Assembly (NCBI GenBank): GCA_026874595.1
Contig: CM049310.1
Location: 84,605,056 to 84,669,055, forward strand
Reading direction: 5' to 3'
Length of the DNA: 64,000 bases
Origin: Sipunculus nudus
Lineage: Eukaryota; Annelida; Sipuncula; Golfingiida; Sipunculidae
A program made the translations under genes and the position numbers. Position 1 is the stretch's first letter; every line of letters begins with the position of its first letter. Positions 8,123 through 58,727 of the stretch are shown piece by piece. The notes beneath the pieces are model-generated. The model worked only from the letters and a program-made list of their open reading frames with translations, was not told where the DNA came from and made no database searches.

Positions 8123-10947
8123 AAAAATACAGGTGGCTCCACCAGTCTGCAGAAACTAATAAAAACACTTACAAACATCAATATCCATGCAAAGAATCAT
8201 GATGATCTCCCCATTAGTTGTTCAGATACTTCAGCTTTTGTATCAAATTGTCCATTATTCTGAGGGATACTTCGGAGTCCTATAGCTTGAAGGATATGGG
8301 TAACAGAGACCTAATTTTAAGTTTCCACAGGCACTTTTCATGGGCCTTCTTGCATGACAAGAATGAAGATTCTAGGTCCAGTTGTTGCGATTTGTACCCT
8401 GTTGACAGATAACCACATCTTTAAAGGTATCAAAAAAAGAGAAAAAAATATCGTAAAAATTTGAAAAAAAATAGAGGTGGCACACCCAGTCTGCAGAAAC
8501 TGATGGAACAGGTCATGATCAATATGTATGCCAAAAATGAAGACCATCAGGGATGTAGTTATTGAGATATTGAAGTTTTTGTATGAAATTTTTTACTATT
8601 CTGGGGGGTACTTTGGGGCCCGATAGCTCAAAGGATATGGGTAACAGAGACCTAATTTCTGGTTTCCAAGGAGATTTTTCATGGACCTCTCAGTGTGTCA
8701 AGAATTAAGATTCTAAGTCCAGTCTTTATGATTTGTGCCTTGTTAACAGATGTTCACATTTTTAAAGGTCTCAAAAATAGAGAAAAAAATTTGTAAAAAA
8801 TCGAAAAATACAGGTGGCACCACCAGTCTGCAGGAAGTGATGTAACATCTCATGATCAATATGTATGCCAAAAATCATGACCATCAGTCAAGTAGTTAAT
8901 GAGATATTGAAGTTATTGTATGAAATTTTTGACTTTTCTGGGGGGTACTTTGGGGCCACATAGCTCGAAGGATATGGGTAACAGAGACCTAATTTCTGGT
9001 TTCCAAGGAGATTTTTTATGGACCTCTCAGAATCCCAAGTTACAAGGTTCTAGGTCCAGCGGTTACGATTTGTGCCTGGTTAACGGACGGACAGATGGAC
9101 AGACAGACAGACGGACGACGGACAAAGAGTGATCGCTATAGCTCAGATGACTTTCAGTCAGCTGAGCTAAAAATTGTAAAAAAATCGAAAAATACAGGTG
9201 GCGCCACCAGTCTGCAGGAACTTATGGAACATCTCATGATCAATATGTATGCCAAAAATCATGACCATCAGTGTTGTAATTATTGAGATATTGAAGTTTT
9301 TGTATGAAATTTTTTACTATTCTGGGGGGGGGTACTTTGGGGCCCCATAGCTCGAAGGATATGGGTAACAGAGACCTAATTTCTGGTTTCCAAGGAGATT
9401 TTTCATGGACCTCTCAGTGTATCAAGAATTAAGATTCTAGGTCTAGGCTTTACGATTTGTGCCTTGTTAACAGATGTTCACATTTTTAAAGGTCTCAAAA
9501 ATAGAGAAAAAAAATTTGTAAAAAATCGAAAAATACAGGTGGCGCCACCAGTCTGCTGGAAGTGATGGAACATCTCATGATCAATATGTATGCCAAAAAT
9601 CATGACCATCAGTCAAGTAGTTAATGAGATATTGAAGTTTTTGTATGAAATTTTTTACTATTCTGGGGGGTACTTTGGGGCCCGATAGCTCAAAGGATAT
9701 GGGTAACAGAGACCTAATTTCTGGTTTCCAAGGAGATTTTTCATGGACCTCTCAGTGTGTCAAGAATTAAGATTCTAAGTCCAGTCTTTATGATTTGTGC
9801 CTTGTTAACAGATGTTCACATTTTTAAAGGTCTCAAAAATAGAGAAAAAAATTTGTAAAAAATCGAAAAATACAGGTGGCACCACCAGTCTGCAGGAAGT
9901 GATGTAACATCTCATGATCAATATGTATGCCAAAAATCATGACCATCAGTCAAGTAGTTAATGAGATATTGAAGTTATTGTATGAAATTTTTTACTTTTC
10001 TGGGGGGTACTTTGGGGCCACATAGCTCGAAGGATATGGGTAACAGAGACCTAATTTCTGGTTTCCAAGGAGATTTTTTATGGACCTCTCAGAATCCCAA
10101 GTTACAAGGTTCTAGGTCCAGCGGTTACGATTTGTGCCTGGTTAACGGACGGACAGACGGACAGACAGACAGACAGACAGACGGACGACGGACAAAGAGT
10201 GATCGCTATAGCTCAGATGACTTTCAGTCAGCTGAGCTAAAAATTGTAAAAAAATCGAAAAATACAGGTGGCGCCACCAGTCTGCAGGAACTTATGGAAC
10301 ATCTCATGATCAATATGTATGCCAAAAATCATGACCATCAGTGTTGTAATTATTGAGATATTGAAGTTTTTGTATGAAATTTTTTACTATTCTGGGGGGG
10401 GTACTTTGGGGCCCCATAGCTCGAAGGATATGGGTAACAGAGACCTAATTTCTGGTTTCCAAGGAGATTTTTCATGGACCTCTCAGTGTATCAAGAATTA
10501 AGATTCTAGGTCTAGGCTTTACGATTTGTGCCTTGTTAACAGATGTTCACATTTTTAAAGGTCTCAAAAATAGAGAAAAAAAATTTGTAAAAAATCGAAA
10601 AATACAGGTGGCGCCACCAGTCTGCTGGAAGTGATGGAACATCTCATGATCAATATGTATGCCAAAAATCATGACCATCAGTCAAGTAGTTAATGAGATA
10701 TTGAAGTTTTTGTATGAAATTTTTGACTTTTCTGGGGGGTACTTTGGGGCCCCATAGCTCAAAGGATATGGGTAACAGAGACCTAATTTCTGGTTTCCAA
10801 GGAGATTTTTCATGGACCTCTCAGAATCCCAAGTTACAAGGTTCTAGGTTCAGCGGTTACGATTTGTGCCTGGTTAACTGACGGACAGACGGACGACGGA
10901 CAAAGAGTAATCGCTATAGCTCAGATGACTTTCAGTCAGCTGAGCTA
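8123..10947 (-). mobile_element. Family C tandem core array with tails (C1)
   Basis: Tandem units of about 340-356 bp each begin with a GGTGGCGCCACC-type palindrome and CAGTCTGCAG, then GAGATATTGAAG at +88, a G-run (GGGGGGTACTTTGGGGCC), GGATATGGGTAACAGAGACC and an A-rich linker. Three copies of the family tail occur, ending at 9169, 10240 and 10947. Each is an (ACGG/ACAG)n tract, then CAAAGAGT, then a hairpin with outer arms TAGCTCAG/CTGAGCTA and inner arms TGACT/AGTCA. No family C left end is present here. The junction with A1 is the same as at 56,270. Confidence 0.75.
8575..10711. repeat. 1,068-bp higher-order tandem duplication inside C1
   Basis: 8,575-9,642 and 9,643-10,711 are nearly identical, including an internal tail hairpin and the ACGG tract. 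They differ mainly by the lengths of the ACAG microsatellite and a G-run. Each copy spans three family C monomers, so the array grew by a trimer and not by single units. The near-identity indicates a recent event. Confidence 0.85.
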
Positions 10948-11464
10948 AAAAACACATCAATGTAGGTGGCGCCACCAATACCTCAAAATCAGATATGACA
11001 TATGTGACAAACATTGGTATAAAATTTGGTGATTATAGCTCTACCCGTTTCTGAATTTTGATTTTAGTGTGCTTTTTCGGACAGATTACTAAGTTCAACC
11101 TCCTGTAACTCGGCCAAAAATCTGCGAACTGGAACCATTCGAACAAACTTGAGAGAGATTGTTCAAGGGATCATTTCTGTGAAATATTGGACAATTTGGC
11201 TGGACAGTTTCAGAGAAGATATTTTTTTTAAAAGTTTTTAAGCTTTTTCTCTATAAAATCTAATTTAATGCAGATACCCAATAATAAGCTCTAGGGCACC
11301 AAGTTTCACATGTGACTAATTCTTACATGTAATTTGGAGCTGCTAGCTCCGACAGTTTCTGACTTACAGCCATGGGCGGCGGAAAGCCAGCCCTGGATGG
11401 CGGAGGGCGGACAGTGACGATGACGGACGATGCTGCGCCATCGCATAAGCTCACAGGTTCACTA
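10948..11464 (-). mobile_element. Family D core and right end (part of D1)
   Basis: A single core with the exact palindrome at 10,965 and GAATTTT (GAGATTTT in D2) at 11,053, an 88-bp spacing. It continues through CTGTAACTCGGCCAAAAATC and CATGTGAC blocks to a GGACGG-rich tract and the D tail. It matches 52,665-53,177 almost throughout. An (ATA)n run follows directly. Confidence 0.75.
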
Positions 11465-12388
11465 ATAATAATAATAATAATAAAATTGTTTTCTATATTG
11501 TGAAATACATTTACACTTAATGCTTTATATAAATAGATTATAACAAAATGGCATGATGACATTAATGGTGGGGGAGCCCCTGCCAGGAACAGCCTACTTG
11601 ACAGTCAGCTAAAGATATCTCATCCATCACTGAATCAATGGTAAAACAACAGTCAGATTGTTTGAGAATACATGTGGCTTCATCTACAGCAAAACTTGCC
11701 TAAATTAAAAAAATCAAATGAGAAACTTAATCCCATAACATGGTGATGATCCCTTCAATAATTACCTGTCAGATCACTTTTATTACCTGCTGGATCAATC
11801 AATTACCTGATGTATAATATGTCATGTTACCCTATAAATCTTGAGTTTAATTATTATAAATATAACCTGGTAAAAATTAAAGGGATTAATTCTGATGCTT
11901 CTACATTATAATGAAAAGCATCTGCTCACAAAATTGAGTAAAATTAGCTGTATATGATACAAAGGAATTTGTTCTGGAAATGTCAAGCAATACTGGCAAT
12001 GGGGTTTAGTTCTACTGATGGCTATAAACTTTCTGAACAGTTAAGGTAATTTCTACTATGTGTTCATGTACAACAAACACACTCCCGGATGGTCCATAAC
12101 TGATTCCTCCAGAAAATGAAATTTCACAATTGTAATTCCATGAACATTCTACCTAACATTTGAGCACCACAACAGATTAACTCACAAAAATTAATGGTCC
12201 ACAAGAATATGGAATTTCATCTATAAAATTCCATAATATTACTTTTTATTAGAAACAATAAATCTGGATTTCAATGACGATTGTTAATTCCCTTCACAAG
12301 GATGGGTGTTTTTTTTTATAGGTTTGATTCAATGAAATATGAGGTAAAAAATTAAATATGTATATATACATTATAAAAGTGGACTTAC
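11465..12388. other. Non-coding; probable intron of the EGF-like gene
   Basis: AT-rich sequence downstream, on the minus strand, of the EGF/transmembrane exon. No continuation exon for the cytoplasmic tail is recognised. Unique sequence apart from an (ATA)n run at the left edge. Confidence 0.45.
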
Positions 12389-21135: not shown

Positions 21136-22284
21136 GCAACAATATAAAATAATAGTCCGCATGACTGTAAATTACAATGATGAAAGAACAGACGTAAATG
21201 AATTGATGGAGTTTAACTCAGACTGCACTGAAGGATATCAACAACAATAAAACTAAATAACAGCCGTGTCATTTTGCTTACAGGGCCAGATATATATATA
21301 ATAAAAAAAGAAACCATCCCACTGCTGCAGCCAGATTACAGTCTGTAATCTGACATAAACTGAAGGTTTTATAAGCACTGGGTCATGATAATAGTCAGTT
21401 AAACAGCAAGATGTTTCATCATGAAGGAAATGGCAAGGTAAACATGGATCATTTCCAAAAGCAATTTCCAGAGCTCCGGTAAAACAGGCCCTTATCTCAG
21501 CAGCATGCCAAGGTCAGATATATATTAACGGATGCAGCAACCTGTGATGCTGATAGGGTAAAAGATACCAACCAAAATGGAAACTGCATCTTCTGGGATA
21601 ATAACCAGCAAGGCGTCAAAACATTATATTACAAAGGAACATCAATTTTACTCTTATTCTTTCCTTTAAGACTGGTAGAACACCATTAGAATAAGAGAGC
21701 ATTTTCAATTTAATTAGTCCGAAGAAAACCGTATGATAACATTAATATTTATCTTTCTGGATTACAAGTTTCCACAACTGGGTATTGGAATAACCCAAAT
21801 ATCAATAATCTCTTAATTTCTATGATATAATAAGTCCTTAAGCACAACAGCCAAACAAGTCAATAGCCGAGCTCCATGTACAAAGACCAGGGATCAACAT
21901 TTACCATGGCCTATCTGCCAGATGGAGATTTGAGGTTTACTGGGCAGGTGAAAACCCCAGTTGCATAGGGCATGAAGGGTGTCCAATCAATCACTGACTT
22001 TGATTAAAGGGAAATTATTCATGTATGTGACCAGTGTCAAATATGTCAACTTAAGATGAAATCAACTCTTCTGACATATAATAAACTGTTTTACTAAAAT
22101 TTTCAGCGTTATAGTGATATTGGTTTCTTTTGTATTTTTTGCCAGAGTATCTAATTCATTCACTCTAAAGGAATTATCAAATTGATGTGAAATATGGTAA
22201 AAATTTATATATCTATCAACATCCTAGGTTTGAATTGACATAAATGTCATAGAACAAGTTATGAAATTAACACATGTTAATGAA
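21136..22284. other. Non-coding stretch with a GGGCAGGTG fragment
   Basis: No exon recognised. 21,930-21,960 carries a TTTACTGGGCAGGTGAAAA motif related to fragments at 23,665-23,755 and 50,555-50,625 (ACTAGCTGCC..ACTTGGCAGGT), apparently another old dispersed repeat. Confidence 0.35.
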
Positions 22285-23641
22285 CTAGATATTTCTTGGC
22301 ACCGCAGGTGCCATAGTATCCCCAGACAATTAACCCCCCCCCCCCTCCTCCCGGCCTTGAAGAATAGGATCCCATCTTGAATTCAGATGCAGAGACTGAC
22401 ATTTGGCAAGACACCATGGTTTCTTATAAGTATGGGTATATTTAAGGTAAAGGTCACTCTCTTAGGAGAGGTCATGATCCAAATTGAAATATATCTCATT
22501 CCATAACCCATATCTATATATTTGATATGAAAGAAATCTGTCCATTAGTTTTCAACTTATCATGCTCACAGTGCTGTGAAGTGGCAATGGTGGGGTAAAA
22601 GCAAGAAAACGACACAAGGTGGTGCCACCTGTATTCTGCAGAAGAGAAAAAAAAAAATCCAATATAATTTTTTTTTTAACTTTAAAATACATATATGCAT
22701 GATTTATATGATATGCATAGTTTTCAATTTATCATGCTAACAGTGCTGTCAAGTGGCAATGGTGGAGTATTAACATGTGCAAAAGCAAGAAAACGACACA
22801 AGGTGGAGCCACCTGTATTAGCATAATCGCTGCTGTGACCTTGAAAAAATGCATCAAGGTCATCCTTGTTGGAACTTGAGCTAGCCGTTGATAAGATGCA
22901 TCAAACCTGTGGGTTTGGTGACTGTACCTCAATTTCTTACAAAGTTATTACGTTAACATTTTAACAAGAAAACAACACAAGGTGGTGCCACCTGTCTTCA
23001 GCAAGAGACAAAGCTATCTGAGATCTTCGGTCAATTTGATTTTTGGATCGTTCCATGTAGCCCTTACTGAGATATTAAAGATTTTGTGTGAATTTCACCA
23101 ATTATGGGAATATTCAAGGTCAAGGCCACTCTCATAGGAAAGGTCATGACCCCAATTTAAATAAACATCATTCCATAACCCATATCTATGTATATGCATA
23201 ATATAAAAGAAATCTGTCCATTAGTTTTTGACTTATAATGCTCACAGTACTGTCAAGTGGCAATTTTGGGGGTATTAAACGGCACACAAACAAGTAAAGA
23301 ATAATAGGTGGCGCCACCAGTTTCTGGAACATGACAACCCTAGCCATGATCTTCCATCAGCTTGATTTTGGGATCAATCCATGCAAGATTTCTTGAGATA
23401 TTTAAGAATTTGTGTGATTTTCCCCAAATTTGGACCTATTCAAGGTCAAGGACACTCTCCTAGTCAAGATCATGACCTCATTTTAAATAGGCGTCGTCCT
23501 CTCACCCATATCTATACATATATCAAGTTTGGTAAAGATCCGTGAAATATTTTTTGTGTTATCGCGCCAACAAGATTTATATGCGGTGGCAGCAGCGGGA
23601 CCAGTATGAAAACATAGTATCCCCTGACTTTGTCTGGGGAC
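22285..23641 (-). mobile_element. Family B element B1 (Helitron-like, non-autonomous)
   Basis: The left end is CTAGATATTTCT, then the hairpin TGGCACC-GCA-GGTGCCA, then ATAGTATCCCCAGACAATTA and a C-run. The right end is ATAGTATCCCC, TGAC, TTT, GTC, TGGGGAC, a hairpin sharing CCCCAGACA with the left end in inverted orientation. Four core units carry palindromes at 22,619, 22,802, 22,981 and 23,307 (the last exact). 22,981 and 23,307 are followed by GAGATAT at +88. On the minus strand the end is hairpin-8 nt-CTAG-TT, the classic Helitron 3' terminus. No coding capacity. Confidence 0.75.
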
Positions 23642-23844
23642 AAATTAATACTCTTATAAACAAGAATATGGGCAGGTGACAGACACATTTGGGCAGGTGA
23701 AGTTTATCAACTAGCTGCCCAACTTGGCAGGTGAGAATAAAAGTCAATGTCTAACCCTGAAGACTCCTGCATCTCTGGCAATTAAGAAAGAAAAGGATCT
23801 TAACATAGCAGGCTTCTGACTTTAAAGTGGCCTATTCACTTACC
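23642..23844. repeat. GGGCAGGTG-type repeat fragment
   Basis: 23,665-23,755 (GGGCAGGTGACAG, ATCAACTAGCTGCCCAACTT, GGCAGGTGAGAATAA, TGTCTAACCCT) matches 50,555-50,625 closely. The palindromic part AGCTGCC..GGCAGGT suggests an element end. Full extent unknown. Confidence 0.45.
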
Positions 23845-25745: not shown

Positions 25746-26966
25746 CAAGTGGCCCATGGGCCATGCTGCTCAGCTGAAATCAAGGAACCTTGAACAATGG
25801 GTACATCATGCCAATAAACCTTAGATATCGGTTACAGTGACCTTATTAGACATCCAGCAGCTACCATCTGTGCCCATCTGACTATAAGAGTGTTAAAATA
25901 ATGTTCTTACACACAGCTTGCAGAACATTATTTCAGGTTTCAAAGAAATTTTTACCGGAACCTCCCTCATTCTTGCTCAAAGTAGAAGTTTCTGGGTCCA
26001 ACTGTGATCAAACATGCAAATCTGTCCTATAGGGTGCTCAAATCATGTCCTTTCATATATCTTGCAGAATATAGGAATTTTGACCTAGTTTCAGGTTTCC
26101 AAGGAGATTTGCCTAGGACCTCCCTGGGTGTACAGGTGGCAGATTTTAGGTCTAACTGTTACAGTTTGTGCCCTATAATCAGCCAGGCTGCTTCATTTGA
26201 AGGTCTCGATTTTTTAAAGCTCTTTGGCTTTTTCCCTATAAAATTTCAGAAAATGCAGTTAAAAAAAATAAACAAGATCCGATAGTTTTTCAGATGACTG
26301 TTTATTTGCAAAAAATTTGGTGATGCTAGCTCCTGCCGTTTTTGAGATAGCCATGGTTAACGTACAGACGACGCACACCGCAGGACCCACAACGCTGCAC
26401 CATTGCATAAGCTCACAGGTTCGCTAAAAAATGTATACAAAAAGTTACAAGATACAGGTGGCGCCACTAGTCGGAAGGAACTACTTAAACACTAGATCCA
26501 AATGCATGCAAAGAATCATGGCCACCAATGCAAAGTTATTCAGATACTGGAGCTTTTGTATCAAATTTTTAATTATTATTTTTTTTGGGGGGGGGGGGTT
26601 ACAAGCCCCTTTACATGGAGGATATAGACCTAATTTCAGGTGTCCAAGGAGATTTTTCATGGATCTCCCTGGATGTCAAGTAAGAAGATTCTAGGTCCAA
26701 CAGTTACTATTTGTGCCCTGTAAATGGATGACCGCTTCATTTGTCTCAAAAATAAGAGAAAACTGTGTAAAAAAAATTAGCAAAATACAGCTAGGCTACC
26801 AGTCTGCACAAGCCAATGACACACTCCATGATCAATATGCATGCAAAGAATCAAGTTAGAAGTTTCTAGGTCTAACAGTTAGGAATTGTGCACTGTTAAT
26901 AGGCAAATGGACAGCTGGCCTGACAAAGAGTGATCGCTATAGCTAAGATGACTTTCAGTCGAGCTA
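25746..26966 (-). mobile_element. Family C element C3, with a D-type tail inside
   Basis: The left end is CAAGTGGCCCATGGGCCATG then CTGCTCAGCTG. The right end is the C tail ATCGCTATAGCTAAGATGAC...GAGCTA, with several bases lost from the hairpin. Diverged C units lie inside, one with GGTGGCGCCACT at 26,457 and CAGATAC at 26,541. At 26,300-26,430 it holds a D-type segment ending GCATAAGCTCACAGGTTCGC. A G12 run sits at 26,587-26,598. An old, internally rearranged copy. Confidence 0.6.
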
Positions 26967-28097: not shown

Positions 28098-31000
28098 CAA
28101 GGGACCTATGGGTCACGGCGCTCAGCTGTTATATAAGATAAAAAAATATGATTTTGAAATGAGGCACATGCTGGTTTTGTGTGGAAACTAGATATTTCTT
28201 GGCACCGCAGGTGCCATAGTATCCCCAGACAATTAATCCCCCCCCCTTTAAGAATAGGCCCCCAATCTTCAGCAACAATTAATATCAGACCACACTCATA
28301 GAAAAGGTCATTCTCATAGAAAAGGTCATGATCCAAATTTCAATATACATCATCCCCTAACCCATGTCTATGTATATGCAAGAAATCTGTCCATTAGTTT
28401 TTTACTTATAATGCTCACAATACTGTTAAGTGGCAATGATGGGGTATTAAACGGCACGAAAACAAGTAAAAGAATAACAGGTGGCACCACCTGTTTCCCG
28501 TACATGACAACACTATCCAAGATCTTCGTTCAAGTTGATTTTTGGACCAATCAATGCATCCCTTATTGAGAAATTAATGATTTTGTGTGATTTTCACCAT
28601 ATATGGCAATATTCAAGGTCAAGGCCACTCATTGGAAAGGTCATGACCCCTATTCAAATAAACATTATCCTATATCCCATATCCATGTATATGCATAATA
28701 TGAAAGAAATTTGTCCATTAGTTTTTGACTTATAATGCTCACAGTACTGATAAATGGCAATGATGGGGTATTAAACGGCACAAAACAAGTAAAAGAATAA
28801 CAGGTGGCGCCACCTGTTTCCGGTACATGACAATACTTTCCAAGATCTTCGAACATGATGATTTTTGGACCAATGCATGCATCCCTTATTAAGATATTAA
28901 TGATTTTGTGTAATTTTCACCATATATGGCAATTTTTCAAGGTCAAGGCCACTCTAATAGGAAAGGTCATGACCCCAATTTATATATACATCATCCCATA
29001 ACCCATGTCTATGTATATGCATAATATGAAAGAAATCTGTCCATTAGTTTTTGACTTATAATGCTCACAGGTTATAAATGTACTGTTAAGTGGCAATGAT
29101 GGGGTAATAAACGGCACGAAAACAAGTAAAAGAATAACAGGTGGCGCCACCTGTTTCCGGTACATGACATTACTATCCAAGATCTTCGGTCAAGTTTATT
29201 TTTGGACCAATGCATGCATCCCTTATTGAGAAATTAATGATTTTGTGTGATTTTCACCCTATATGGCAATATTCAAGGTCAAGGCCACTCTCATAGGAAA
29301 GGTCATGACCCCAATTTAAATAAACATCATCCCATAACCCATATCTATGTATTTGCATAATATGAAAGAAATCTGTCCATTAGTTTTTGACTTATAATGC
29401 TCACAGTACTGTCAAGTAGCAATTTTGGGGATGTTAAACGGCATGAAAACAAGTAAAGAATAATAGGTGGCGCCACCAGTTTCTGGAACATGACAACCCT
29501 ATCCATGATCTTCGATCAACTTGATTTTGGGATCAATCCATGCAAGTTTTCTTAAGATATTTAAGAAATTGTGTGATTTTCCCCAAAATTGAAACTATTC
29601 AAGGTCAAGGTCACTCTCTTAGTTGAGGTCATGACCTCATTTTAAATAGGCGTCGTCCTCTCACCCATATCTATACATATACCAAGTTTGGTAAGGATCT
29701 GTGAAATATTTTTTGAGTTATTGTGTCCAAAAGAAATCTCTGCGGCGGCGGCGCGACCGTGCCTAAACCATAGTATCTCCAGACTATGTCTGGCGATACA
29801 ATAAATATAAGCTGTATTATGAGTTGTTAGTGTTAAGCTTATGTATGATTTTGATAGTTTCTTTGGAGACAGGGAAGAGATTGATTTCATTTATTTTATT
29901 AACAAATGGAGTGCCACTGTCATACAGATTTTGACTTGGCCATATAACTGATAAGCAGCACATATGAGATAAAAGTTTAACTATTTATTAAAATTTAATA
30001 ACAAATATTGTGCCAAATATAATTTTTATTAAAAATAATAAGAGAATCATATGATTTTTTTAATAAAATATAAATGAAATGATTATTAAAATAATATTAT
30101 AGAATATATTCATGAATGCATTCATGAATACATTTTGAAAGTATTTGCACTGGTATTCAAATACTTTCACTTTTACCTGAATTCCCATTCTTATGCAAGA
30201 AATTTTATAATGGCATGTCTGGTATTTATTCAGTTTTAGCCAAACAATGATGTTGAGAATCCAGAATATAAACAAAGGACCCATGGGTCACGACAACCAG
30301 CTTAAGTTTGAAATTTTTGCAAATGCAAAATATGAAAAATATTCTATTGTAATGTTTTTTATTTATATAAGCATATGAGAAGCTAAGAGGAAAGGGCCCT
30401 CCTACTTGTTTATAGTAAAGTTCTCAATATATGATTGCAAACTAATACTCTGACAAGACTGTCATGAAGAAAAACAGTAAAAGTTTTGAGATACTGTGAT
30501 GCATATGAAAAATTTGCAGATGGACAGGCAAGTGGACTGAATGGACTAATACCTTCATTTCACTTTCAAGGGAATAATGCATTTAAGTTTATATATAACA
30601 ACATGGCATCTACAAAATTATTCCTTGAATCCCTATTAAAACGTTTTGCACATTGGAGTTTTCAGTACATGCTTAATTTTATTCACCGAAATAAAATTAA
30701 AGATTCAGTACATTTGATAAAATAAAAACATCTTTTCAAATAAAGTATACACACTGTTGGTTGAATGAGGGACAAACAATATAATTATGCTAATTACAAT
30801 CTCAGCTAAAATTAATTACTGGAATTAATAGTCAATTTCACACCTGGTGAAGTTTTACTCTTCTGAAATAAAGCATTATTTATCTGATGAACATCCACAC
30901 TTTCATAGCAATACATCACTTTGTGGACACAATTAAATGTGCACTTTAATCATTGTAACCCTGGTGGTACAATACAAAATCTAAAATGTAGCATGTCCAA

Positions 31001-32740: not shown

Positions 32741-32792
32741 GGGGCATAAAAAACTCAAATCTGTCAAAGTGCTGCAAACAATTGCTTATACA

Positions 32793-33578: not shown

Positions 33579-33914
33579 GGCCAAAAAAAAAAAATAAAAG
33601 GTATGCTTCTCAGGCACCGACCGCGTCAATTTTAATCCCCTGCATCAAAAATTTTTATTTTGATTTTCAATAGAAACTTTCCAATTTTGAGCTCCAGTCG
33701 CTCGATTTCTTTACAGAAGATAAATCATACAATTTTGATCAAATTTATTTTGTTATGCAGTGCTTTTACTTGTTCAGCAAAATAAATCTGTTATTTTCAT
33801 GATTTTCCTTATCATTTGACATTTTTATCGAAACACACATAAAAATTAAAAATAAAAAACGCCCGTATAGATTTCTGAAAAATGTGCCTGAGAACCAAAC
33901 CTTGTTTTAAAGCC
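33579..33914. mobile_element. Family I MITE, copy I2
   Basis: Left GGCCAAAAAAAAAAAATAAA then GGTATGCTTCTCAGGCACCG, right GTGCCTGAGAACCAAACCTT then GTTTTAAAGCC, with the interior alignable to I1 (TAGAAACTTTCCAATTTTGA, TATTTTGTTATGCAGTGCTT). Length 336 bp. The left flank is TAA and the right is ATA, so the duplication is no longer exact. Confidence 0.75.
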
Positions 33915-36690: not shown

Positions 36691-36698
36691 AGAATTAC

Positions 36699-40660: not shown

Positions 40661-42387
40661 AAAAACAAAAAGTATTTCCCATGAAAAAATGTGTTAAACA
40701 GATGCATTATTAAAAGAAAAGCAGTAAATATTTCCAATACTCACAAAAAGTGGTACCGTAGTGTCTTAAACTGGGTACCTGGATGTAAGTAGTGCCATTT
40801 ATTTATTTATTAAATGGATACTTCTATATCATTATTCCTTCAAATATGTTCTATTTTCTTCTGAACATTATCAGTTAGTAATACTTCTGAGGATACTGTT
40901 AACTTAAAGACAAAATACACCACTATGTATAAGAGGCCTTAACAATATTTAGGCGTCAGTGTAACAATGACACATCCAGGTAAACACACCTACCAAAAGA
41001 GATAATGACAGTGAATGGTGTAAATTTACGCTGATGCAGGAAATTGACTTAAAGCTTAAGATGAAAGTGAACATACTGCAAAGGAATCAAATAATGGCAG
41101 TAATGGATGTGAATGCCTCCGGGTAAAAGTAGCATTCCATGTCCATGCTGAATTCACAAGACTCTAAGCCATTTTTATTGTTTGACCATTAGCTGCTTGC
41201 ACGTTTTTTATTTTTATTTTCAAAGTCAAATTTTGTGAAATGTCAATTCATGAAATAACATTCTGCCACATTTAAAGTGTTATGGGCTGTATTGTTTGAT
41301 CAAGAAAGCATATGTATACCACTAGGTGGTTTAATTTAGTTCCCCAGGATATAAACGAACCCCCTGATCACATGTCCTAACAGGAACCGAGTCTTTGAGA
41401 TGCACATCCGTGAAATGTCAAGTAGTGATCCCCAATTACTTCACCTGCCGTGGTTAGATCCATACCAGACCACTAATTGATATATCCCCAGTAAATCTGT
41501 TCAACGGCAACTGCATGGCTGACAAGTAGCATTTACACACTCCTTTTAATGTCAAAACAATTGGCAACCTTTTTATTTATGATTCAGGTCCATCAAATCT
41601 TCTTGCGTGAGATTATTATTGCGGTGATATATCAGTCATACTGCAGTCAGACGAGTGTGAAATGACTAGAAATAAAACAAGCTGTAACTATCAGAGCTTG
41701 ATTTCCGGAAATTAGGGCTCTAATAGCCCACTGTCACCTCTACTCTGGCAATGATAAACCCAGATTATGCGGCCATCTTGTGCATAGCAAAAATTAAGGT
41801 ATCCGTGATATTTTTTTTGGCTGCAGTATGAACTAAAATTGGTTGGGACCAAAAGGTCCTGAATTAGGGCCCACAATGCCTTGTTCCTCAATAAGGGCAC
41901 ACAATGCCCTGTTCCTCAAAGTGGCAGCAATGTGGCCATACTGGTTGGGATATTGGTTTGAAATTTATCACCACGAACAATATAAATTGGACTGGTCTTT
42001 AAGAATAACATGGCAACATCTAAAAGGAATACTGAGATAATATTAATGCATGTGAAAAGATTCAGAGATCACGGACTGGTGGCCATTTTATATTTTTCGC
42101 TGGGTCAAAATTTTGTAAGGGATCTTTTCATGGTTGTCAATTTTTCTTTAAAACCTTCACAGCAATTGTGTTAACAGTTCTTGAATGCATGCAAAAGGAG
42201 TTCCCAGATCCTTGCCTGGTTTGTTCAAGATATTTTATTGATACTGAATATGGAAGTACAATGTGATGTGAAATATAGCATCAAAATATCACATACTACA
42301 AACATCAAAGGGATTGAGTGCCAGCTACTCATCTTGACTCTCTCCCTGTTATTTTTTTAAAGTAATATGGTAGTGTTCAACAGTCAA
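40661..42387. other. Non-coding stretch, nothing recognised
   Basis: Unique sequence. Small frames at 41,712-42,040 overlap on opposite strands and lack splice sites or domains. Confidence 0.4.
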
Positions 42388-44376
42388 CTAGAATACGGGT
42401 AGTCGACAAGCAACTACGTGTATCCGCCTAAATCAGAGTGGAACGGGCGAAGTGAGGCATGGATTGAGTGGCAAGGGGAAATAGAGTGAAGTGTTGCATA
42501 TTAGCATGGATGTCTGCAGCCAAATGGTGCATGTAGGTTGCGCCTCCTACCACAAAATCCAGAAAGCCGTCCAAGTTGTATACATATGCAAACTTTGTGG
42601 CAGATAAATCAAACCACTATATGTTTATGAGTGATTTTAGCCCGTGGCAGACAAACAGTTGGACGCTATGCAAAAATGGTTGAAGGTGGCGCCACCAGTT
42701 TTGCAAAACTTTGCCCCAATCGGTCAAACGGTTCCCAAGATATGAGCTTGGATGTCTGCTGCATAAACTAGAATGCAGGTGGCGCCACCTGTCATAAAAT
42801 CAAGAGAGCTGTCGGGGATGTATAAACCTGCAAAATTTTAGGCAGATATGTCAAACCACTGCCGAGATATGAGTGATTTTATCCCATGGCAGACAAACAG
42901 ACGGGAGCTGTGCAAAAATGGCTGCAGGTGGCGCCACCAGTTTTGCGTATGATAGAGAGCTATGTGAGATCTATACACATGCAAAATTTTGGCCCAATCG
43001 GTCAAACGGTTCCCGAGATATGAGCTTGGATGTCTGCAGCATAAACGTGAATGTAGGTGGCGCCACCTGTCATAAAATCAGAAAAGCTATCCAGGATGTA
43101 TACGCATGCCAAATTTCAGAGGAATTAGTCAAATCACTGCAGAGATATGAATGATTTTAACCCAAGGCAGAGGAACAGATGGACACTGTGCAAACATGGT
43201 TGCAGGTGGCGCCACCATTTTTTGTGTATGTTATAAAGCTCTCCAAGGGCTACATTTGTGCAAAAAAAATTTTCCTGATCGGTCAAACGGTTCCTGAGAT
43301 ACGAGCTTGGATGTCTGCAGCGTGAACGTGAATGTAGGTGGCGCCACCTGTCATAAAATCAGAAAAGCTATCCAGGATGTATACGCATGCCAAATTTCAG
43401 GTGAATTAGTCAAGTCACTGCAGAGATATGAGTGATTTTAACCCAATGCAGAAGAACAGATGGACACTGTGCAAACATGGTTGCAGGTAGCGCCACCATT
43501 TTTGGTGTATGTTATAAAGCTCTCCAAGGGCTACATTTGTGCAAAAGAATTTTCCTGATCGGTCAAACGGTTCCCGAGATATGAGCTTGGATGTCTGCAG
43601 CGTGAACGTGAATGTAGGTGGCGCCACCTGTCATAAAATCAGAAAAGCTATCCAGGATGTATACGCATGCCAAAATTTCAGGTGAATTAGTCAAGTCACT
43701 GCAGAGATATGAGTGATTTTAACCCAAGGCAGATGAACAGATGGACACTGTGCAAACATGGTTGCAGGTGGCGCCACCATTTTTGGTGTATGTTATAAAG
43801 CTCTCCAAGGGCTACATTTGTGCAAAAGAATTTTCCTGATCGGTCAAATAGTTCCCGAGATATGAGCTTGGATGTCTGCAGCGTAAACGTGAATGTAGGT
43901 GGCGCAACCTGTCATAAAATCAGAAAAGCTATCCAGGATGTTTAAGCATGCCGAATTTCAGGTGAATTAGTCAAGTCACTGCAGAGATATGAATGATTTT
44001 AACCCAATGCAGACGAACAGATGGACACTGTGCAAACATGGTTGCAGGTGGCGCCACCATTTTTGATGTATGTTATAAAGCTCTCAGAGGGCTACATTTA
44101 TGCAAAAAAATTTTCCTGATGGGTCAAACGGTTCCCGAGATATGTGGGTTTATGTGTGGAAACAGACGCACAAACGGACGCAGAGCGCAGAGGAAAGGTC
44201 AGAGGTCAAAACAAAATCGGGGCGCAGCAGTTCACATGTGACCCGAACATAATCCAGGGTTTCGGAAAATTACGCCCAGCGGTTACAGAGGAGTTCTCCG
44301 GACACCTACGCGGCGGCGGCCGCGGCGGCGTGCAGCTGAAAACATAGTATCCGCAAAACTCTGCTTTGGCGGATAC
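42388..44376 (-). mobile_element. Family A element A3 (best-ordered copy)
   Basis: The left end is CTAGAATACGG, then the hairpin GTAGTCG-ACAAG-CAACTAC, then GTGTATCCGCC. The right end is GTATCCGC-AAAAC-TCT-GCTTT-G-GCGGATAC. Palindromes recur at 42,686, 42,778, 42,927, 43,056, 43,207, 43,337, 43,488 (one change), 43,618, 43,769, 43,899 (one change) and 44,049, so spacings alternate between about 150 and 131 bp (unit about 281 bp). GAGATAT follows at +88 or +86. CGGCGGCGGCC-type GC-rich sequence precedes the right hairpin. No coding capacity. Confidence 0.85.
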
Positions 44377-45170
44377 AACTAGAGATAGATTCAGGTAAAT
44401 AAATCTTATGGCAAAACAAGAAATGATTAAAACCACAAAGGTCCTCAAATATAGCCCACTGTGCTCAGATATCTTATATGGCTGCCTGGTGGCCATATTA
44501 GTTTACTGACCTCTCACAGGGACATATCATTTGTAAAAATTTCATGTAATGACTTTTCTCTAGTTAAGTCAACATTGCTTGAACCAGTGCATGCCAAAGC
44601 AAATTCAGGACCCCTGGATGGTGGCCATATTACATTGCTGATGTGTCCAAAATCTGAGGGTACATCTTTTCATGCACAGCCACTGCTTGAACTGTTCTTG
44701 AGATAATGCTTGCAAAAGTCCAAGATTGCTTGCCGGATTTTACAATGGATTTCTTATAGATCTGAAATTCAACAGTGTATATCCTCTCACTGAGGCCATT
44801 CTTAAGAAAATATCTAACATCAAACGCTGGAACAGTGCCAGAAATAATTCATATGAAAAGAGATCCTAAGTCAGGTACCCACATGAGCAGGGGCATTGAA
44901 GTGTTAATGTTGATAAGTGAAGGAAAAGGAGACAATAGAAGATCTATGATAACAGCACCAAAGCCAAGGACATGTTTATGTTTAGTATAAACATAAACCA
45001 GTATATATGTTTAGAAGCTACATAAAATCTAAAAGAGAATCTTATATATTACAGAGAAGTATATATTAAAAAATCACGAAGGTAAGGTTAACTATCATTA
45101 CCTGGAAAGCAGCATCAAACATAAATTCTGGCTAAGTAAATCAATATAAGAAACTTTTACCGCATCATGT
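44377..45170. other. Non-coding stretch with one perfect hairpin
   Basis: CTAGAGATAGATTC starts directly after A3 and may be another element end. At 44,974-44,998 an 11-bp perfect inverted repeat (GTTTATGTTTA, loop GTA) stands out. A possible 30-nt minus-strand exon-like segment ending CAG|GTAATG at 45,106 is not supported. Confidence 0.35.
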
Positions 45171-48370: not shown

Positions 48371-48443
48371 TTGGTTGTGACCAGGGCTTTAGTTAGGTAA
48401 TGGCTGTGACTTTAAATGATAGTTTCTGAAATGACAGTTGGAT

Positions 48444-50095
48444 CATCTCCAATCATAGGCAGGTAGGGATAATACAATCATGGGCAAATGAGGATTATAC
48501 TGGTCTCCAATCATAAGCAAATAGGGATAATACTAGTCTCCAATCTTGGGCAGGTAGGGATAATACTTATCTCCGATCATGGGCAAATAAGGATTATACT
48601 GGTCTCCAATCATAAGCAAATAAGGATTATACTGGTCTCCAATCATGGGCAAATAGGGATAATACTATCACCGATCATGGGCAAATAAGGATTATACTGT
48701 TCTCCAATCATGGGCATGTAGGGATAACACTGATCTCTGATCATGGGCAAATAAGGATTATACAGGTCTCCAATCATGGGCAAATAAGGATTATACTTGT
48801 CTCCAATCATGGGCAAATAAGGATTATACAGGTCTCCAATCATGGGCAAATGAGGATTATACTGGTCTCCAATCATAAGCAAATAGGGATAATACTAGTC
48901 TCCAATCTTGGGCAGGTAGGGATAATACTTATCTCCGATCATGGGCAAATAAGGATTATACTGGTCTCCAATCATAAGCAAATAAGGATTATACTGGTCT
49001 CCAATCATGGGCAAATAGGGATAATACTATCACCGATCATGGGCAAATAAGGATTATACTGTTCTCCAATCATGGGCATGTAGGGATAACACTGATCTCT
49101 GATCATGGGCAAATAAGGATTATACAGGTCTCCAATCATGGGCAAATAAGGATTATACTTGTCTCCAATCATGGGCAAATAAGGATTATACAGGTCTCCA
49201 ATCATGGGCAAATAAGGATTATACTGGTCTCCAATCATAGGCAGGTGGGATAATACTGGTTTCCAATCATGGGCAAATAGGGATAAAACTGATCTCCAAT
49301 CATGGGCAAATAAGGATTATACAGGTCTCCAATCATAGACAAATAAGGATTAAACTGGTCTCCAATCATGGGCAAATAGGTATAATACTGGTTTTCCAAT
49401 CATGGGCAAATAGGGATAATACTGATCTCCGATCATGGGCAAATAAGGATTATACTGGTCTCCAATCATGAGCAAATAAGGATTATACTGGTCTCCAATC
49501 ATGGGCAAATAGGTATAATACTGGTTTTCCAATCATGGGCAAATAGGGATAATACTGGTCTCCAATCTTAGGCAGGTAGGGATATTACTGATCTCTGATC
49601 ATGGGCAAATAAGGATTATATTGGTCTCCAATCATGGGCAAATAAGGATTATACTGGTCTCCAATCATAAGCATATAGGGATAATACTGGTCTCCAATCT
49701 TGGGCAGGTAGGGATAATACTGATCTCTGATCATGGGCGAATAAGGATTATATTGGTCTCCAATCATGGGCAAATAAGGATTATACTGGTCTCCAATCAT
49801 GGGCAAATAAGGATTATACTGGTCTCCAATCATGGGCAAATAGGGATAATACTGATCTCCAATCATGGGCAAATAAGGATTATACAGGTCTCCAATCATG
49901 GGCAAATATGGATTATACAGGTCTCCAATCATAGGCAAATAAGGACTATACTGGTCTCCAATCATGGGCAAATAGGGATAATATTGCATGGTCTCCAATC
50001 ATGGGCAAATAGGGATAATATTGCATGGTCTCCAATCATGGGCAAATAGGGATAATATTGCATGGTCTCCAATCATGGGCAAATAAGAAATATAC
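48444..50095. repeat. 33-bp minisatellite, about 50 copies, with a 362-bp higher-order duplication
   Basis: The unit TCATGGGCAAATAAGGATTA, TACTGGTCTCCAA recurs every 33 bp. 48,482-48,843 and 48,844-49,205 are identical or nearly so at an offset of 362 bp (eleven units minus one base). The multiple-of-three period leaves long frames open on both strands (minus repeat MIGDQYNPYLP, plus repeat LVSNHGQIRII). With no start context or flanking exons I do not call genes. Confidence 0.95.
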
Positions 50096-51017
50096 TGTAT
50101 CTACTATCTACAAAGAGCAATTGTCAATGACCACTGCCTGACTGCCTGGGGAAGGTGAAGGATACTTTCTGGCAGGTGCAAACCTTATAATTAGTTCAGG
50201 TGACAACAGCTTTATGTCCAGCAGTGTCCAGCTTATCCTCTTACACTGAGGAACAGTTGTTCATCCACATGACTGGTTTCACTTATATATATATATGTAT
50301 ATCAACCTGACAAGCAAAAAAATAGGTGTTTTCTCTCTTGTTATAAATTAATTATTTTACTCAAGTCTTTTAGTTTCCTTCTCAATTATTGCGGGACTGG
50401 CGGGTTCATTCACGTGAAAGTCAATTTAATTCTAAAGATTATGTGAAAAACAGTTTCTCCTAATGCCTATTGGCACCCCTTGGTGAGAAGGACTATAAAT
50501 GTAAGGGAACAACTTTTAACAATTACACATTCAAGCACATCACAAATAAATTTATGCAGGTGTATTATATCAACTAGCTGCCTGACTTGGCAGGTCAGAA
50601 TAATAGTGTGTGTCTAACCCTACCAAAATTTAATATAAAAAGACCAAAGCACATTTTACACACCCGATGTATCATGTGGAAATTCAATAATAGAACATTT
50701 TTATTTCTATACCAAATATGGAACACACATTTTATGAATATGACATTTAAAGGAAAAGTGAATTTATTATTTTTCCTGTATCCAGAAAACTGAATATGAA
50801 TGATGAACTTTTTTCTGTGGTCTATGAAATGTTGTGGCATGAACCTTAAAACCTATGACATGGCATCATTCAAGATCACTACCATCAGCAGTTTTTACTC
50901 AAGTTCACGCCATCTACATTATAAAATCGCTGCCACCCTGTCTGGATAACTATAGCTTGATTCCAAAACCATCTACTTTATGATTTTGTCCAGCATCTAA
51001 AATCACAATTTTATAAA
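50096..51017. other. Non-coding, with a GGCAGGT-type fragment
   Basis: 50,555-50,625 matches the repeat at 23,665-23,755 (ATCAACTAGCTGCC, ACTTGGCAGGT, GTCTAACCCTA). The rest is unique. Confidence 0.35.
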
Positions 51018-53177
51018 AACAAGGCCTACAGGCCTAATGCGAACCTGTGCAAAGTTTGGGAGTATGAATGGAGGTTTACTTTTTAAATTTAATATTGATC
51101 CTTTTAAGTCCTGCATATCTACCTTAGTCAATATGATTTCAGCAAAAATGGATGTATCGGACCTGCAATTTTCAGACAAGGACATTTTAAAACTAGAATA
51201 CGGGTAGTCAACAAGCGACTGTGTATTCACGGAAATCAGAGTGGGATGGGTGAAGTGAGGCATGGATTAGGTTGCAAGGGGAATAGAGTGAGATGTGTTG
51301 CATATTAGCATGAATGTCTGCAGCGTAAACGTGAATGTAGGTGGTGCCACCAATCATAAAATCGAGAAAATTGTCCAGGATGTGTAAACCTGCGAAATTT
51401 AAGGTAGATAAGTCAAACCACTGCTGAGATATGAGTGATTTTATCCCAAGGCAGATGAACAGATGGACGGTGTTCATAAGTGGTTGCAGGTGGTGCCCCC
51501 AGTTTTGCTTATGATGAAGAGCTATGTGAGATCTATACACAAGCAAATATTTGGCCCAATCGGTCAAACGGTTCCTGACATATGAGCCTGGATGTCTGCA
51601 GAGTAAACCTGAATTTAGGTTGCGCCACCTTCATAAATCGAGAAAGCTGTCCAGGATGTATAAACCTGCAAAATTTCAAGTGGATAAGTCAAACCACTGC
51701 TGAGATATAAGTGATTTTATCCCAAGGCAGATGAACAGATGGACGGTGTCCATAAGTGGTTGCAGGTGGCGCCCCCAGTTTTGCTTATGATGAAGAGCTA
51801 TGTGAGATCTATACACAAGCAAAATTTGGCCCAATCGGTCAAACGGTTTCTGACATATGAGCTTGGATGTCTGCAGAGTAAATCTGAATGTAGGTGGTGC
51901 CACCTGTCATAAAATTGAGAAAGCTGTCCAGGATGTATAAACCTGCAAAATTTCAGGTGGATAAGTCAATCCACTGCTGAGATATGATCGAGTGCTATTT
52001 TCCAAAGGCAGATGAACAGATGGACATTGTGCAAAAATGGTAACAGGTGGCGCCACCATTTTTAGTGTATGTTATAAAGCTATCAAAGGGCTACATATGT
52101 GCAAAATTTTTAGCCTGACTGGTCAAACGGTTCTGGAGATATGCGGGTTTATGTGTGGAAACAGATGCACAAATGGACGCTGGGCAGCGAGGAAAGGTCA
52201 GAGGTCAACCAAAAATGAGGGCGCAGCAGTTCACATGTGACCTGATGATAAACCCGATTTGGTTAAAATGCAAACCAAGTTTTTTCAAACAGTTGAAAAA
52301 TATAGTTCCAATAATCTGGGAATTCTGCATCTAAACACTGCGTCTAGACGTCTAGACACATTGTCTAGACACCCCACAGAGCCAGGTCAGTTGCCATGGT
52401 GATGTCTGGACCCCACCTGATTGTACTGAGTGACCTCTTTACTTGGCTAAAACTCAGCATGATGTCAAATCTGTTTTCAAATACAGAAAGCCTTTTTCAA
52501 TTGGCTACAATGCTTTTTTAAAACTGTATTTACCCAATCTATTCTTATAAAACTGGCAGAACCCTACCATAGAATAATTCTTGTAAAGTTTAAACAATTC
52601 AGCTTAACAGTTTCATCATAAATCAGTGTATAAGCTAGGGTTTAAAATTACATTTGCGCTTGTAAAAAACACATCAATGTAGGATGCGCCACCAATACCT
52701 CAAAATCAAATATGACATATGTGACAAACATTGGTATAAAATTAAGTGATTATAGCTCTAGTCGTTTCTGAGATTTTAATTTGAGTGTGCTTTTTTGGAC
52801 AGACGACTAAGTTCAACCTCCTGTAACTCGGCCAAAAATCTCCGAACTGGAACCATTCGAACAAACTTGAGAGAGATTGTTCCAGGGATAATTTCTGTGA
52901 AAAATTGGACAATTTGGCTGGACAGTTTCAGAGAAGAAGATTTTTAAAGGTTTTTAAGCTTTTTCTCTATAAAATCTAAATTAATGCAGATACCTAATAA
53001 TAAGCTGCAGGGCACCAAATTTCACATGTGACTATTTCTTTCATGTAATTTGGAGCTGCTAGCTCCAACATTTTCTGACCTACAGCCATGGACGGCGGAA
53101 AGCCAGCCCTGGACGGCAGACGGTGGAAGATGGACGGACGACGCTGCGCCATCGCATAAGCTCACAGGTTCGCTAAA
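51018..53177 (-). mobile_element. Family D element D2 (contains A2)
   Basis: The left end is CAAGGCCTACAGGCCTAATG, then CGAACCTGTGC; the right end is GCATAAGCTCACAGGTTCGC then TAAAAA. The subterminal inverted repeat GCGAACCTGTG is perfect at both ends. The D core at 52,665-53,177 has a diverged palindrome (GGATGCGCCACC, 52,682) with GAGATTTT at 52,770, again 88 bp. A2 occupies the left half, at the same D position as A1 in D1. 52,375-52,664 is not shared with D1. Confidence 0.7.
51193..52374 (-). mobile_element. Family A element A2, right end missing
   Basis: Left end CTAGAATACGGGTAGTCAAC then AAGCGACTG. Diverged A cores carry palindromes at 51,340, 51,489, 51,767 and 51,894 (changed) and 52,047 (exact). 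It ends in a TCTAGACGTCTAGAC-type stretch also found in A1 at 7,230. The terminal hairpin GTATCCGC/GCGGATAC is absent. Confidence 0.65.
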
Positions 53178-55197: not shown

Positions 55198-58100
55198 CAA
55201 GTGACCCATGGGTCATGACGCTCAGCTGACTGGGAAGAGATTTGCAAAAGGAAATTTTATCATCAGAATGGTAGTATATACCCATTCAACTGAAGCATCA
55301 AACAGATTAACCAACAGGCCAAGATTTAGTCTGTATTTATATATCTCAAAAATAGAGAAAAATGTGTAAACTTTTAAAACTAGAATACGGGTAACCGACA
55401 AGTGACTACATGTATCTGCCAAAATCGGATAGTGAGGCATGGATTGAGTGGCAAGGGGAAATAGAGTGAGGTATGTTGCATATTAGCATGGATGTCTGCA
55501 GCCTAAATGTGTATGTAGGTTGTGCCACCTACCACAAATCCAGAAAGCTGTCCAAGTTGTATACACCTACAAAATTTTAGGCAGAAAAGTCAAACCACTA
55601 CATGTATATGAGCGATTTTTGCCCATGGCAGACAAACAGACAAACACTGTGCAAAAATCTTTGCAGGTAACCCCTCCAGTTTTGTGTATGATAAAGACCT
55701 ATGTGAGATCTAAACACATGCACAATTTTGGCCCAATCGGTCAAATGGTTCCTGAGATATAAGCTTGGATGTGTCCAGCGTTAACTAGAATGTAGGTGGC
55801 GCCACCTGTCATAAAATCAAGAAAGCTATCCTGGATGTATACACATGACGAATTTCAGGTGAATTAGTCAATTCACTGCAGAGATATGAGTGATTTTAAC
55901 CCAAGGCAGATGAACAGATGGACACTGTGCAAACATGGTTACAGGTGGCGCCACCATTTTTTGTGTATGTTATAAAGCAATCCAAGGGCTACATTTTTAT
56001 CAATTTTATTTCCTGATCGGTCAAACGGTTCCCGAGATATAAGGTTTTATGAGTGGAAACAGACCCACAAATGGACACTGGATAGAGAGGAAAGGTCAGA
56101 GGTCAATGCAAATTGGTTAGGCACCAGTTCACATGTGACCTGATAATAGGTGTAAGTTTGGGAAAAATCGGTCCATTAGTCTCCGAGGAGCTCTCTGGAA
56201 ACGAACGCCGCCGCCGCGGAGGAACTCGGTCAAAAACATAGTATCCGCAAAACTTCGTTTTGGCGGATACAAAAATACAGGTGGCTCCACCAGTCTGCAG
56301 AAACTAATAAAAACACTTAATGGTCAATATCCATGCAAAAAATCATGGTGATCTCTGCATTAGTTGTTCAGATACTTCAGTTTTTGTATCAAATTGTCCA
56401 TTATTCTGAGGGATACTTCGGAGTCCTATAGCTTGAAGGATATGGGTAACAGAGACCTAATTTCAAGTTTCCACAGGCACCTTTCATGGGCCTCCTTGCA
56501 TGACAAGAATGAAGATTCTAGGTCCAGTTGTTGCGATTTGTACCCTGTTGACAGATAACCACATCTTTAAAGGTCTCAAAAAAAAGAAAAAAATTCGAAA
56601 AATTTGAAAAAAAAATAGAGGTGGCACACCCAGTCTGCAGAAACTGATGGAACAGCTCATGATCAATATGTATGTCGAAAATCATGACCATCAGTGTTGT
56701 AGTTATTGAAATACTGCAGTTTTTGTATCAAATTTTCCATTATTCTGGGGGGGGGGGGGTATTTTGGACCCATACAGCTTAAAGAATATGGGTAACAGAG
56801 ACCTAATTTTAAGTTTCCATGGAGACTTTTCATGGGTCTCCCTGTGTGTCAAGAATGAAGATTCTTGGTCCAGTTTTTATGATTTGTGCCCTGTTAACAG
56901 ATGTTCATATCTTTAAAGGTCTCAAAAATACAGAAAAATTTCGTAAAAAAAACCGAACAAATACAGGTGGTGCCACCAGTCTGCAGAAACTTATGAAACA
57001 CTCCATGATCAATATCCATGCAAACAATTATGGTTATCTCTGCATTAGTTGTTCAGATACTTTAGCTTTTGTATCAAATTTTCCATTATTCTGAGCTGTA
57101 CTTTGGAGTGCCATAGCTCAAAGGATATGGGTAACAGAGACCAAATTTCAGGTTTCCATGGAGACTTTTCATGGGTCTCCCTGTGTGTCAAGAACAAAGA
57201 TTCTAGGTCCAGTCGTTACGATTTGTACCCTGTTGACAGATAACTACATCCTTAAAGGTCTCAAAAATGGAGAAAACAATTCGTGAACATTGAAAAATAC
57301 AGGTGGCGCCACCAGTCTGCACAAACTGATGAAACATCTCATGATCAATATGTATGTCGAAAATCATGACCATCAGTGATGTAGTTAATGAGATATTGAA
57401 GTTTTTGTATGAAATTTTTGACTATTCTGGGGGGTAATTTTGGGCCCCATAGCTCGAAGGATATGGGTAACAGAGACCTAATTTCTGGTTTCCATGGAGA
57501 CTTTTCATAGGTCTCTCAGTGTGTCGAAAATGAAGATTCTAGGTTAAGTCGTTACGATTTGTGCCACGCTAACAGATGACAGCATCCTCAAAGGTCTCAA
57601 AAATAGAGGAAAAAATCGTAAAAAATCAAACAGTACAGGTGGCGCCACCAGTCTGCAGGAACTGATCGAACATCTCATGATCAATATGTATGCCAAAAAT
57701 GAAGACCATCAGTGATGTAGTTATTGAGATATTGAAGTTTTTGTATGAAATTTTTTACTATTCTGGGGGTACTTTGGGGCCCCATAGCTCAAAGGATATG
57801 GGTAACAGAGACCTAATTTCTGGTTTCCAAGGAGATTTTTCATGGACCTCTCAGTGTGTCAAGAATTAAGATTCTAAGTCCAGTATTTATGATTTGTGCC
57901 CTGTTAACAGATGTTCATATCTTTAAAGGTCTCAAAAATACAGAAAAAAATTTCGTAAAAAAAAACGAACAAATACAGGTGGTGCCACCAGTCTGCAGAA
58001 ACTTATGAAACACTCCATGATCAATATCCATGCAAACAATTATGGTTATCTCTGCATTAGTTGTTCAGATACTTTAGCTTTTGTATCAAATTTTCCATTA

Positions 58101-58662: not shown

Positions 58663-58727
58663 ATAAAACCTTTCATATTATATGCCTGAAGTCTTCATTA
58701 AATTGTTAAGATTGAAAGCACATCAAA

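Follow-up and report, generated by a model that had tools for sequence, protein, structure and literature searches.

What keeps two short words at an almost constant distance in repeats that otherwise differ strongly is the question raised by a stretch of 64,000 nt of the Sipunculus nudus genome (assembly GCA_026874595.1, contig CM049310.1, positions 84,605,056 to 84,669,055), hereafter the window. In four repeat families of the window, designated A, B, C, and D, a palindrome, GGTGGCGCCACC, is followed downstream by the word GAGATAT, and a preliminary description of this DNA attributed the arrangement either to a physical constraint, namely two proteins on one DNA face or a structured RNA, or to a very old common core. 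The module most probably represents a core that has been conserved in the monomers of central tandem repeats in several families of HINEs, i.e., non-autonomous Helentrons (rough probability 0.8). This reading is supported by the presence of the arrays in elements with subterminal inverted repeats (in the best copies), a 3′ hairpin, and, in family C, microsatellites, by the homology of the spacers between the two words, and by the Helentron proteins encoded in the genome.

When a palindrome with at most one mismatch was required to be followed, 82-92 bp downstream, by GAGATAT with at most one mismatch, 44 of the 55 palindrome sites in the window were paired on the plus strand and 11 were unpaired; in the minus-strand reading, 3 of the 55 sites were paired, all of them at 86 bp. 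The genome around the window (1.43 Gb, 153 contigs) contains 22,422 exact pairs at 88 bp (11,287 + 11,135) and 64,814 exact pairs at distances between 73 and 103 bp (32,154 + 32,660), and the reversed pattern of the word pair has no match genome-wide. Moreover, ten first-order Markov windows contained no palindrome with up to one mismatch. The Markov windows and the reversed-pattern search exclude a chance origin of the word pair. In 14 random stretches of 9.5 kb, 11 palindromes (at most one mismatch) were found, confined to two of the stretches, and 8 of them were paired, all at 88 bp, while ten Markov controls for these stretches contained none; the exact 88-bp pattern has no match in viral contigs.

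The distance between the words is not a single value, but a family-specific ladder of 86, 88, and 90 bp, and one fixed spacer length is thereby rejected. The 44 pairs of the window lie at 88 (21), 86 (12), 90 (6), 84 (2), 87 (2), and 91 bp (1). Among 100 matches listed from the 73-103-bp search, all forward and from the start of contig 1, the commonest distances are 86 (42), 90 (23), and 88 bp (21), and the rarer ones are 89 (5), 87 (4), 85 (3), 76 (1), and 73 bp (1). A genome-wide peak at 86/88 bp with little identity between spacers had been proposed as the supporting outcome; the peaks exist, at 86, 88, and 90 bp in these 100 listed matches, but the spacers are homologous. Nearly all module positions of the preliminary description hold: GAGATAT is intact 88 bp from 22,981, 23,307, 9,197, 57,302, and 42,927, carries one change at the same distance from 28,803 (AAGATAT), 29,140 (GAGAAAT), and 52,682 (GAGATTT), and lies 86 bp from 42,778, 43,056, and 59,154. 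The D copy at 10,965 is degenerate, since its GAATTTT differs at three of seven letters and is no match as a word alone, but it aligns by eye with the copy at 52,682. In addition to the copies described at first, there are many more palindromes, a 90-bp class to which six pairs of the window belong, and further distances of 84, 87, and 91 bp.

The DNA between the words is related across families. With both words as the criterion, 124 modules were gathered in the window and in 26 loci (L001-L026). Seven of them, in two clusters that seemed to be look-alikes (GC-rich or on the opposite strand), were removed, and average linkage of the other 117 gave five groups and 17 subfamilies. Modules of B and C fall in one group, with a mean identity of 0.75, and their resemblance extends, by eye, past GAGATAT; the four groups with an 88-bp mode share 42-54% of spacer positions in gapless comparison, against about 27% in shuffles (z 3.2-5.2). 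An alignment of 26 representatives leaves a between-word consensus readable, CTATCCA.GATCTATA..CATGC.AAATTT, with gaps nearly confined to the forms of 86 and 90 bp. When a profile was built from the spacer plus GAGATAT, leaving out the palindrome, 152 matches with E < 1e-3 started at one of profile positions 1-12; the window contains 60 of them, loci L001-L026 contain 79, and random stretches 13. Of the 152, 144 extend to position 80, and the best match in Markov sequence had an E of 0.66. The palindrome is present, with up to three mismatches, at 148 of the 152, and the other four show 4-7 mismatches. Outside these 152, a further 104 of 266 profile matches start after position 12, of which 18 have E < 0.01, and some of these matches to the 3′ part only lie in right flanks with no palindrome in front (e.g., 26,312-26,349 and 29,669-29,717). 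The module is one old sequence and not two words flanking unrelated DNA. The very old common core put forward at first is supported, through the cross-group spacer identity, the joint B/C group, and the similarity that runs past GAGATAT, whereas a conserved length without conserved sequence was an overstatement, since there is sequence conservation, albeit low, and the length modes are family-specific.

Plain recent common descent of one satellite would also produce related spacers, and single linkage at 74% indeed places 113 of the 124 modules, from A, B, and C, in one group. Nevertheless, the low sharing of spacer positions between the 88-bp groups, together with the differing ends and unit lengths of the elements, indicates that the common origin is old, and a recent one is very unlikely.

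The constancy of the spacing seems to follow largely from this ancestry. Within families, the ratio of indels to substitutions is 0.035 (352 vs. 10,075, as pairwise counts), and 196 of the 352 indel events belong to a homopolymer-rich A variant. At this ratio, about 1-1.5 indels would be expected per lineage since the common core, and the length-changed lineages, two out of ten (86 and 90 bp, with eight at 88 bp), are fewer than expected (0.0016 if p = 0.7). However, without the A variant the ratio drops to about 0.019 and p to about 0.4-0.55, which raises the chance of two in ten to 0.17-0.03; when the 86-bp subfamilies I and J are counted as lineages of their own, 4 of 12 have changed (0.44-0.11 for p = 0.4-0.55; 0.009 at p = 0.7). 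Because of this lower ratio and the 4-of-12 tally, the length deficit is weak or absent, in a test whose lineages are non-independent and whose copies were gathered only at 82-92 bp. The even spacing looks mostly inherited from one ancestor with small family-specific changes, and a physical length constraint is not established. Phasing of two proteins may still play a part, but distances of 86, 88, and 90 bp set no single helical phase, and descent with few indels yields most of the constancy.

The structured RNA, which in this case would be encoded by each monomer, is scarcely credible. The palindrome could form a 4-bp hairpin; nevertheless, RNAalifold on the 26 aligned sequences predicts four pairs, all inside the palindrome, none of them covarying or compensatory (covariation term +0.19), the palindrome hairpin of one copy is no better than shuffles (z −0.19), and no Rfam family reaches its gathering threshold in the window. 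This candidate was thus rejected.

The words themselves could be a selected cis signal, with a protein dimer on a palindrome of 12-18 bp, a second factor on GAGATAT, and a length window of about 86-90 bp serving replication, recombination, or chromatin. All eight subfamilies with at least four copies, and 12 of the 17 in total, have an exact palindrome in their consensus, and the CpG of the palindrome is preserved in 14 of the 17, in spite of main-group spacers that differ at about half of their sites; the commonest changes in single copies, C6>T (19) and G7>A (20), resemble CpG decay. The deficit of length changes at the pooled ratio points the same way, subject to the counts, non-independence, and collection range given above. 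Conversely, 1-2 palindrome changes occur in the consensus of five small subfamilies, each with one or two copies, and within families the mismatch per site is 0.064 for the palindrome and 0.063 for GAGATAT, compared with 0.033-0.123 for the spacer. The word rates come from 142 of 148 copies found by the family spacer profiles alone (six with an incomplete 5′ side or at a locus end were dropped), and the spacer rates from the training copies. Selection on source elements is possible behind the conservation of the words between families, and the cis signal as a whole is a tentative, rather doubtful explanation. Another proposal, that of insulator sites borne by transposable elements, starts from the half-site AGGTGGCGCC, which resembles the core of the CTCF motif. 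Among the 26 aligned modules, this half-site is exact in 17 on the plus strand and in 5 on the minus strand. However, the flanks of the longer CTCF motif are not conserved by eye between families, and GAGATAT would be left unexplained; this proposal is highly improbable.

The elements that carry the module have the anatomy of HINEs. Their ends were located by eye and by motif scan. In A, the sequence TGTATCCGCCAAAAC close to the 5′ end recurs as a perfect reverse complement inside the 3′ hairpin, while the subterminal inverted repeats are TCCCCAGACAA in B and GCTCAGCTGACTG in C, where the two ends enclose an A element, the C-type 5′ end for the array at 56272..58663 being at 55197, beyond the intervening A element. 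In one copy each, the inverted repeats measure 15 bp in A, 11 bp in B, and 13 bp in C (maxima in 500 shuffles of 12, 10, and 9 bp), and in the second copies 10 bp in A (shuffle maximum 9 bp), 7 bp in B, and 6 bp in C. All six folded 3′ ends of A, B, and C form hairpins (z −3.0 to −6.8), with one of 200 shuffles as good for one B end and none for the other five. The motif CATAGTATCC is common to the 3′ ends of A and B, so these two are related in their ends too, and C is different. The array units measure 276-281, 326, and 336-337 bp, the 278-bp unit of A being a dimer of 129/149 bp, and ACGG-type microsatellites (GACGGACA repeats) lie at C ends. Across these elements, three stop-to-stop frames reach 120 aa or more (127, 140, and 186 aa) and none of the three matches Pfam, i.e., the elements show no coding capacity. 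The genome has 143 Helitron_like_N matches, and three open frames of 1,590-1,626 aa (in loci L021, L023, and L025) combine the Rep-like Helitron_like_N domain, a PIF1 helicase, and the endonuclease domain Exo_endo_phos, the latter below the Pfam curated cut-off in the third frame. As predicted from these domain matches, their three-domain make-up is that of Helentrons. The only A-D ends found near such frames, a C 5′ motif in L025 and those of an A element in L026, lie on the strand opposite to the Helentron frame.

Several observations weigh against this identification. Two of the six end pairs, those of the second B and C copies, have inverted repeats no longer than shuffles, and the surroundings of the three Helentron frames, which represent 3 of the 143 loci, yielded no autonomous element with A-D ends; a hairpin scan around the same frames gave no stem by the set criteria. 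In comparisons within families, conservation of the words does not clearly exceed that of the spacer. Moreover, profiles and subfamilies were trained on copies with both words, and the words were sought at several offsets, which inflates word conservation.

If the module is the monomer core of HINEs, the elements would move by rolling-circle replication with proteins from autonomous Helentrons, and their arrays would expand or contract via copying or recombination between homologous monomers. The monomers may have arisen from the right part of the element itself, as suggested by right flanks that contain the 3′ part of the module but lack a palindrome. In the source copies that seed the larger families, the palindrome and the GAGATAT end would be retained, and inserted copies would decay almost as fast as the DNA around them. 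The reason for keeping the words might be a replication or recombination signal, a host factor site, or the chance of descent. That they are a cis-acting signal needed for amplification of Helentron source elements, for instance an array-building site of replication or template switching, is unlikely; in that case, selection would act on a few source copies, the words would be near-fixed between large families with differing ends, and inserted copies would decay freely.

Table 1. Features of the window that carry the module or parts of it (window coordinates; distances in bp).
Feature	Coordinates	Strand	Details
A-family element	5764..8123	+	5′ end motif; dimeric 278-bp array with alternating 88/86-bp modules and one of 90 bp (7909); 3′ hairpin end 8089
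C-family 337-bp array	8126..10948	+	Directly after A 3′ end; ACGG-type microsatellites; C 3′ hairpin ends 9131, 10201, 10909
D unit	10965..11465	+	Palindrome; GAGATAT degenerated to GAATTTT (11053); 3′ end of D type 11433
B-family element	22284..23643	+	5′ end with TCCCCAGACAA; modules 22981, 23307; 3′ hairpin end 23613
Module 3′ part (profile positions 45-82)	26312..26349	+	Within D-type right flank; no palindrome ahead
B-family element	28187..29799	+	5′ end motif 28198; modules 28480, 28803, 29140, 29466; 3′ hairpin end 29769
Module 3′ part (profile positions 31-79)	29669..29717	+	Within B right flank; no palindrome ahead
A-family element, 281-bp array	42387..44377	+	Modules at 86, 87, 88, 90, 91
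A-type 5′ end and array (51340-52142), then D unit (52682) and D 3′ end (53144)	51192..53176	+	No A 3′ end in the scan
A-family element	55379..56271	+	Modules 55795 (86), 55944 (90); 3′ hairpin end 56237
C-family array	56272..58663	+	Directly after A 3′ end; modules 57302, 57638, 58314 (88); ACGG-type microsatellite; 3′ hairpin end 58624
A-family element	58727..59625	+	Perfect 15-bp subterminal inverted repeat; 3′ hairpin; modules 58876, 59025, 59154, 59303

The C arrays start immediately after the A 3′ hairpin at 8089-8132 and 56237-56280, which would represent a preferred junction or a composite element. Other repeats share the window. Tandem arrays of 180 bp without the palindrome lie near C-type end motifs (27130-28097 and 31654-32598) and are probably another HINE family; a 33-bp array has about 49 copies (48438-50108), and a 48-bp array (36606-37421) has open frames on both strands. 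An element with inverted ends (GGTATGNTTCTCAGGCAC) occurs in mixed orientation at 24023-24350, 33576-33908, and 60995-61268, and the pattern of its left end has 4,949 matches genome-wide with at most three mismatches. Elsewhere in the genome, modules repeat at steps of about 10.4 kb (C1:3700497-3752385) and 2.8 kb (C1:1405070-1418890), at six places each, in what look like tandem segmental duplications.

The orientation of HINE-like DNA is locally uniform. The window holds 22.6 kb of it on one strand, under six query labels. Out of 41 stretches examined (the window and 40 loci, 15 of the latter chosen by module match), 23 carry HINE-like DNA (the window, L001-L015, L025, L026, L028, L035, L036, L038, and L040), and it lies on one strand only in all 23, barring 51, 32, and 35 bases in three, in a sample in which many short stretches may contain just one element. 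In lists from contigs 1 and 2, with all matches within 12 kb merged, neighboring clusters share their strand in 32 of 36 pairs separated by 12-50 kb, in 34 of 53 pairs for 50-150 kb, in 35 of 64 for 150-500 kb, and in 43 of 86 for more than 500 kb, as sums over four partly overlapping lists; a terminal-inverted-repeat element agrees in strand in 3 of 9 listed pairs less than 150 kb apart. The first 4.7 Mb of contig 1 shows 8 strand switches where 22.9 are expected (52 clusters; 0 of 20,000 permutations). Megabase-scale orientation domains tied to replication forks were nevertheless rejected, since longer stretches, with same-strand matches within 15 kb merged, give 42 switches vs. 45.4 for the C 3′ end (p 0.27) and 31 vs. 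30.7 and 14 vs. 15.6 for the B 5′ end. Local co-orientation could be caused by insertion beside or into earlier HINEs, by joint movement, or by fork-directed insertion, and is a separate lead on the target choice of these elements.

Subterminal inverted repeats, a 3′ hairpin, and microsatellite or tandem repeats are among the listed features of HINEs in two reports (PMC4067079, PMC7492417). A close likeness, in anatomy as described, is to Cg_HINE of Crassostrea gigas (PMC7492417): these elements have short satellite-like arrays in their center, oriented one way relative to the flanks, subterminal inverted repeats, a 3′ palindrome, and, in several of them, GTCY/GTCC-type microsatellites, and two relatively conserved segments are common to otherwise dissimilar monomers (group 1 clusters, CL4). 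In the same source, the 13 largest clusters of satellite-like arrays in the oyster are the central repeats of 11 HINEs. However, the Cg_HINE monomers are mostly of 140-180 bp, compared with 129/149 (278-bp dimer), 326, and 337 bp here, and the microsatellite is in the left flank, whereas here it lies, by eye, to the right of the C units. More Helitron/Helentron-associated repeats in oysters are described in a further report (PMC11136912). Elements of this kind have a molluscan look; a hemocyanin domain, sought as a mollusc mark, gave 0 matches, in a search in which no control gave a signal either. DINE-1 and the mite HINEs are likewise non-autonomous Helentrons with subterminal inverted repeats, a 3′ stem-loop, and microsatellite or tandem repeats, but the accessible text on them mentions no module of palindrome and GAGATAT (PMC4067079). 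The BIV160/Cg170 satellites and Pearl elements have divergent monomers with two well-conserved motifs, and DTC84 a conserved palindrome near the repeat junction (PMC5139131). The two BIV160 primers printed there give no match above chance in the window (18 of 25 positions vs. 17-18 and 16 of 21 vs. 15-16 in eight Markov shuffles), and these primers lend no support to identity with BIV160. A full-text search, with figures and supplements outside it, found GGTGGCGCCACC only in a text on chitinase and in none on repeats, and the 11-letter forms AGGTGGCGCCA and GGTGGCGCCAC, in full text and listings with the same limit, only in texts on chitinase, USP24, and CD38, again none on repeats.

Divergent monomers with two conserved segments are already known, from BIV160/Cg170 of bivalves and from oyster HINEs, and by analogy the module would be comparable to their two boxes; evenly spaced words are no proof of a new machine. 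If the reading given here is correct, S. nudus would have one old monomer core across HINE families with different ends, in tens of thousands of copies within one genome. This may provide a natural data set for the question of whether satellite-like repeats in rolling-circle elements act as functional signals or are carried as passive cargo.

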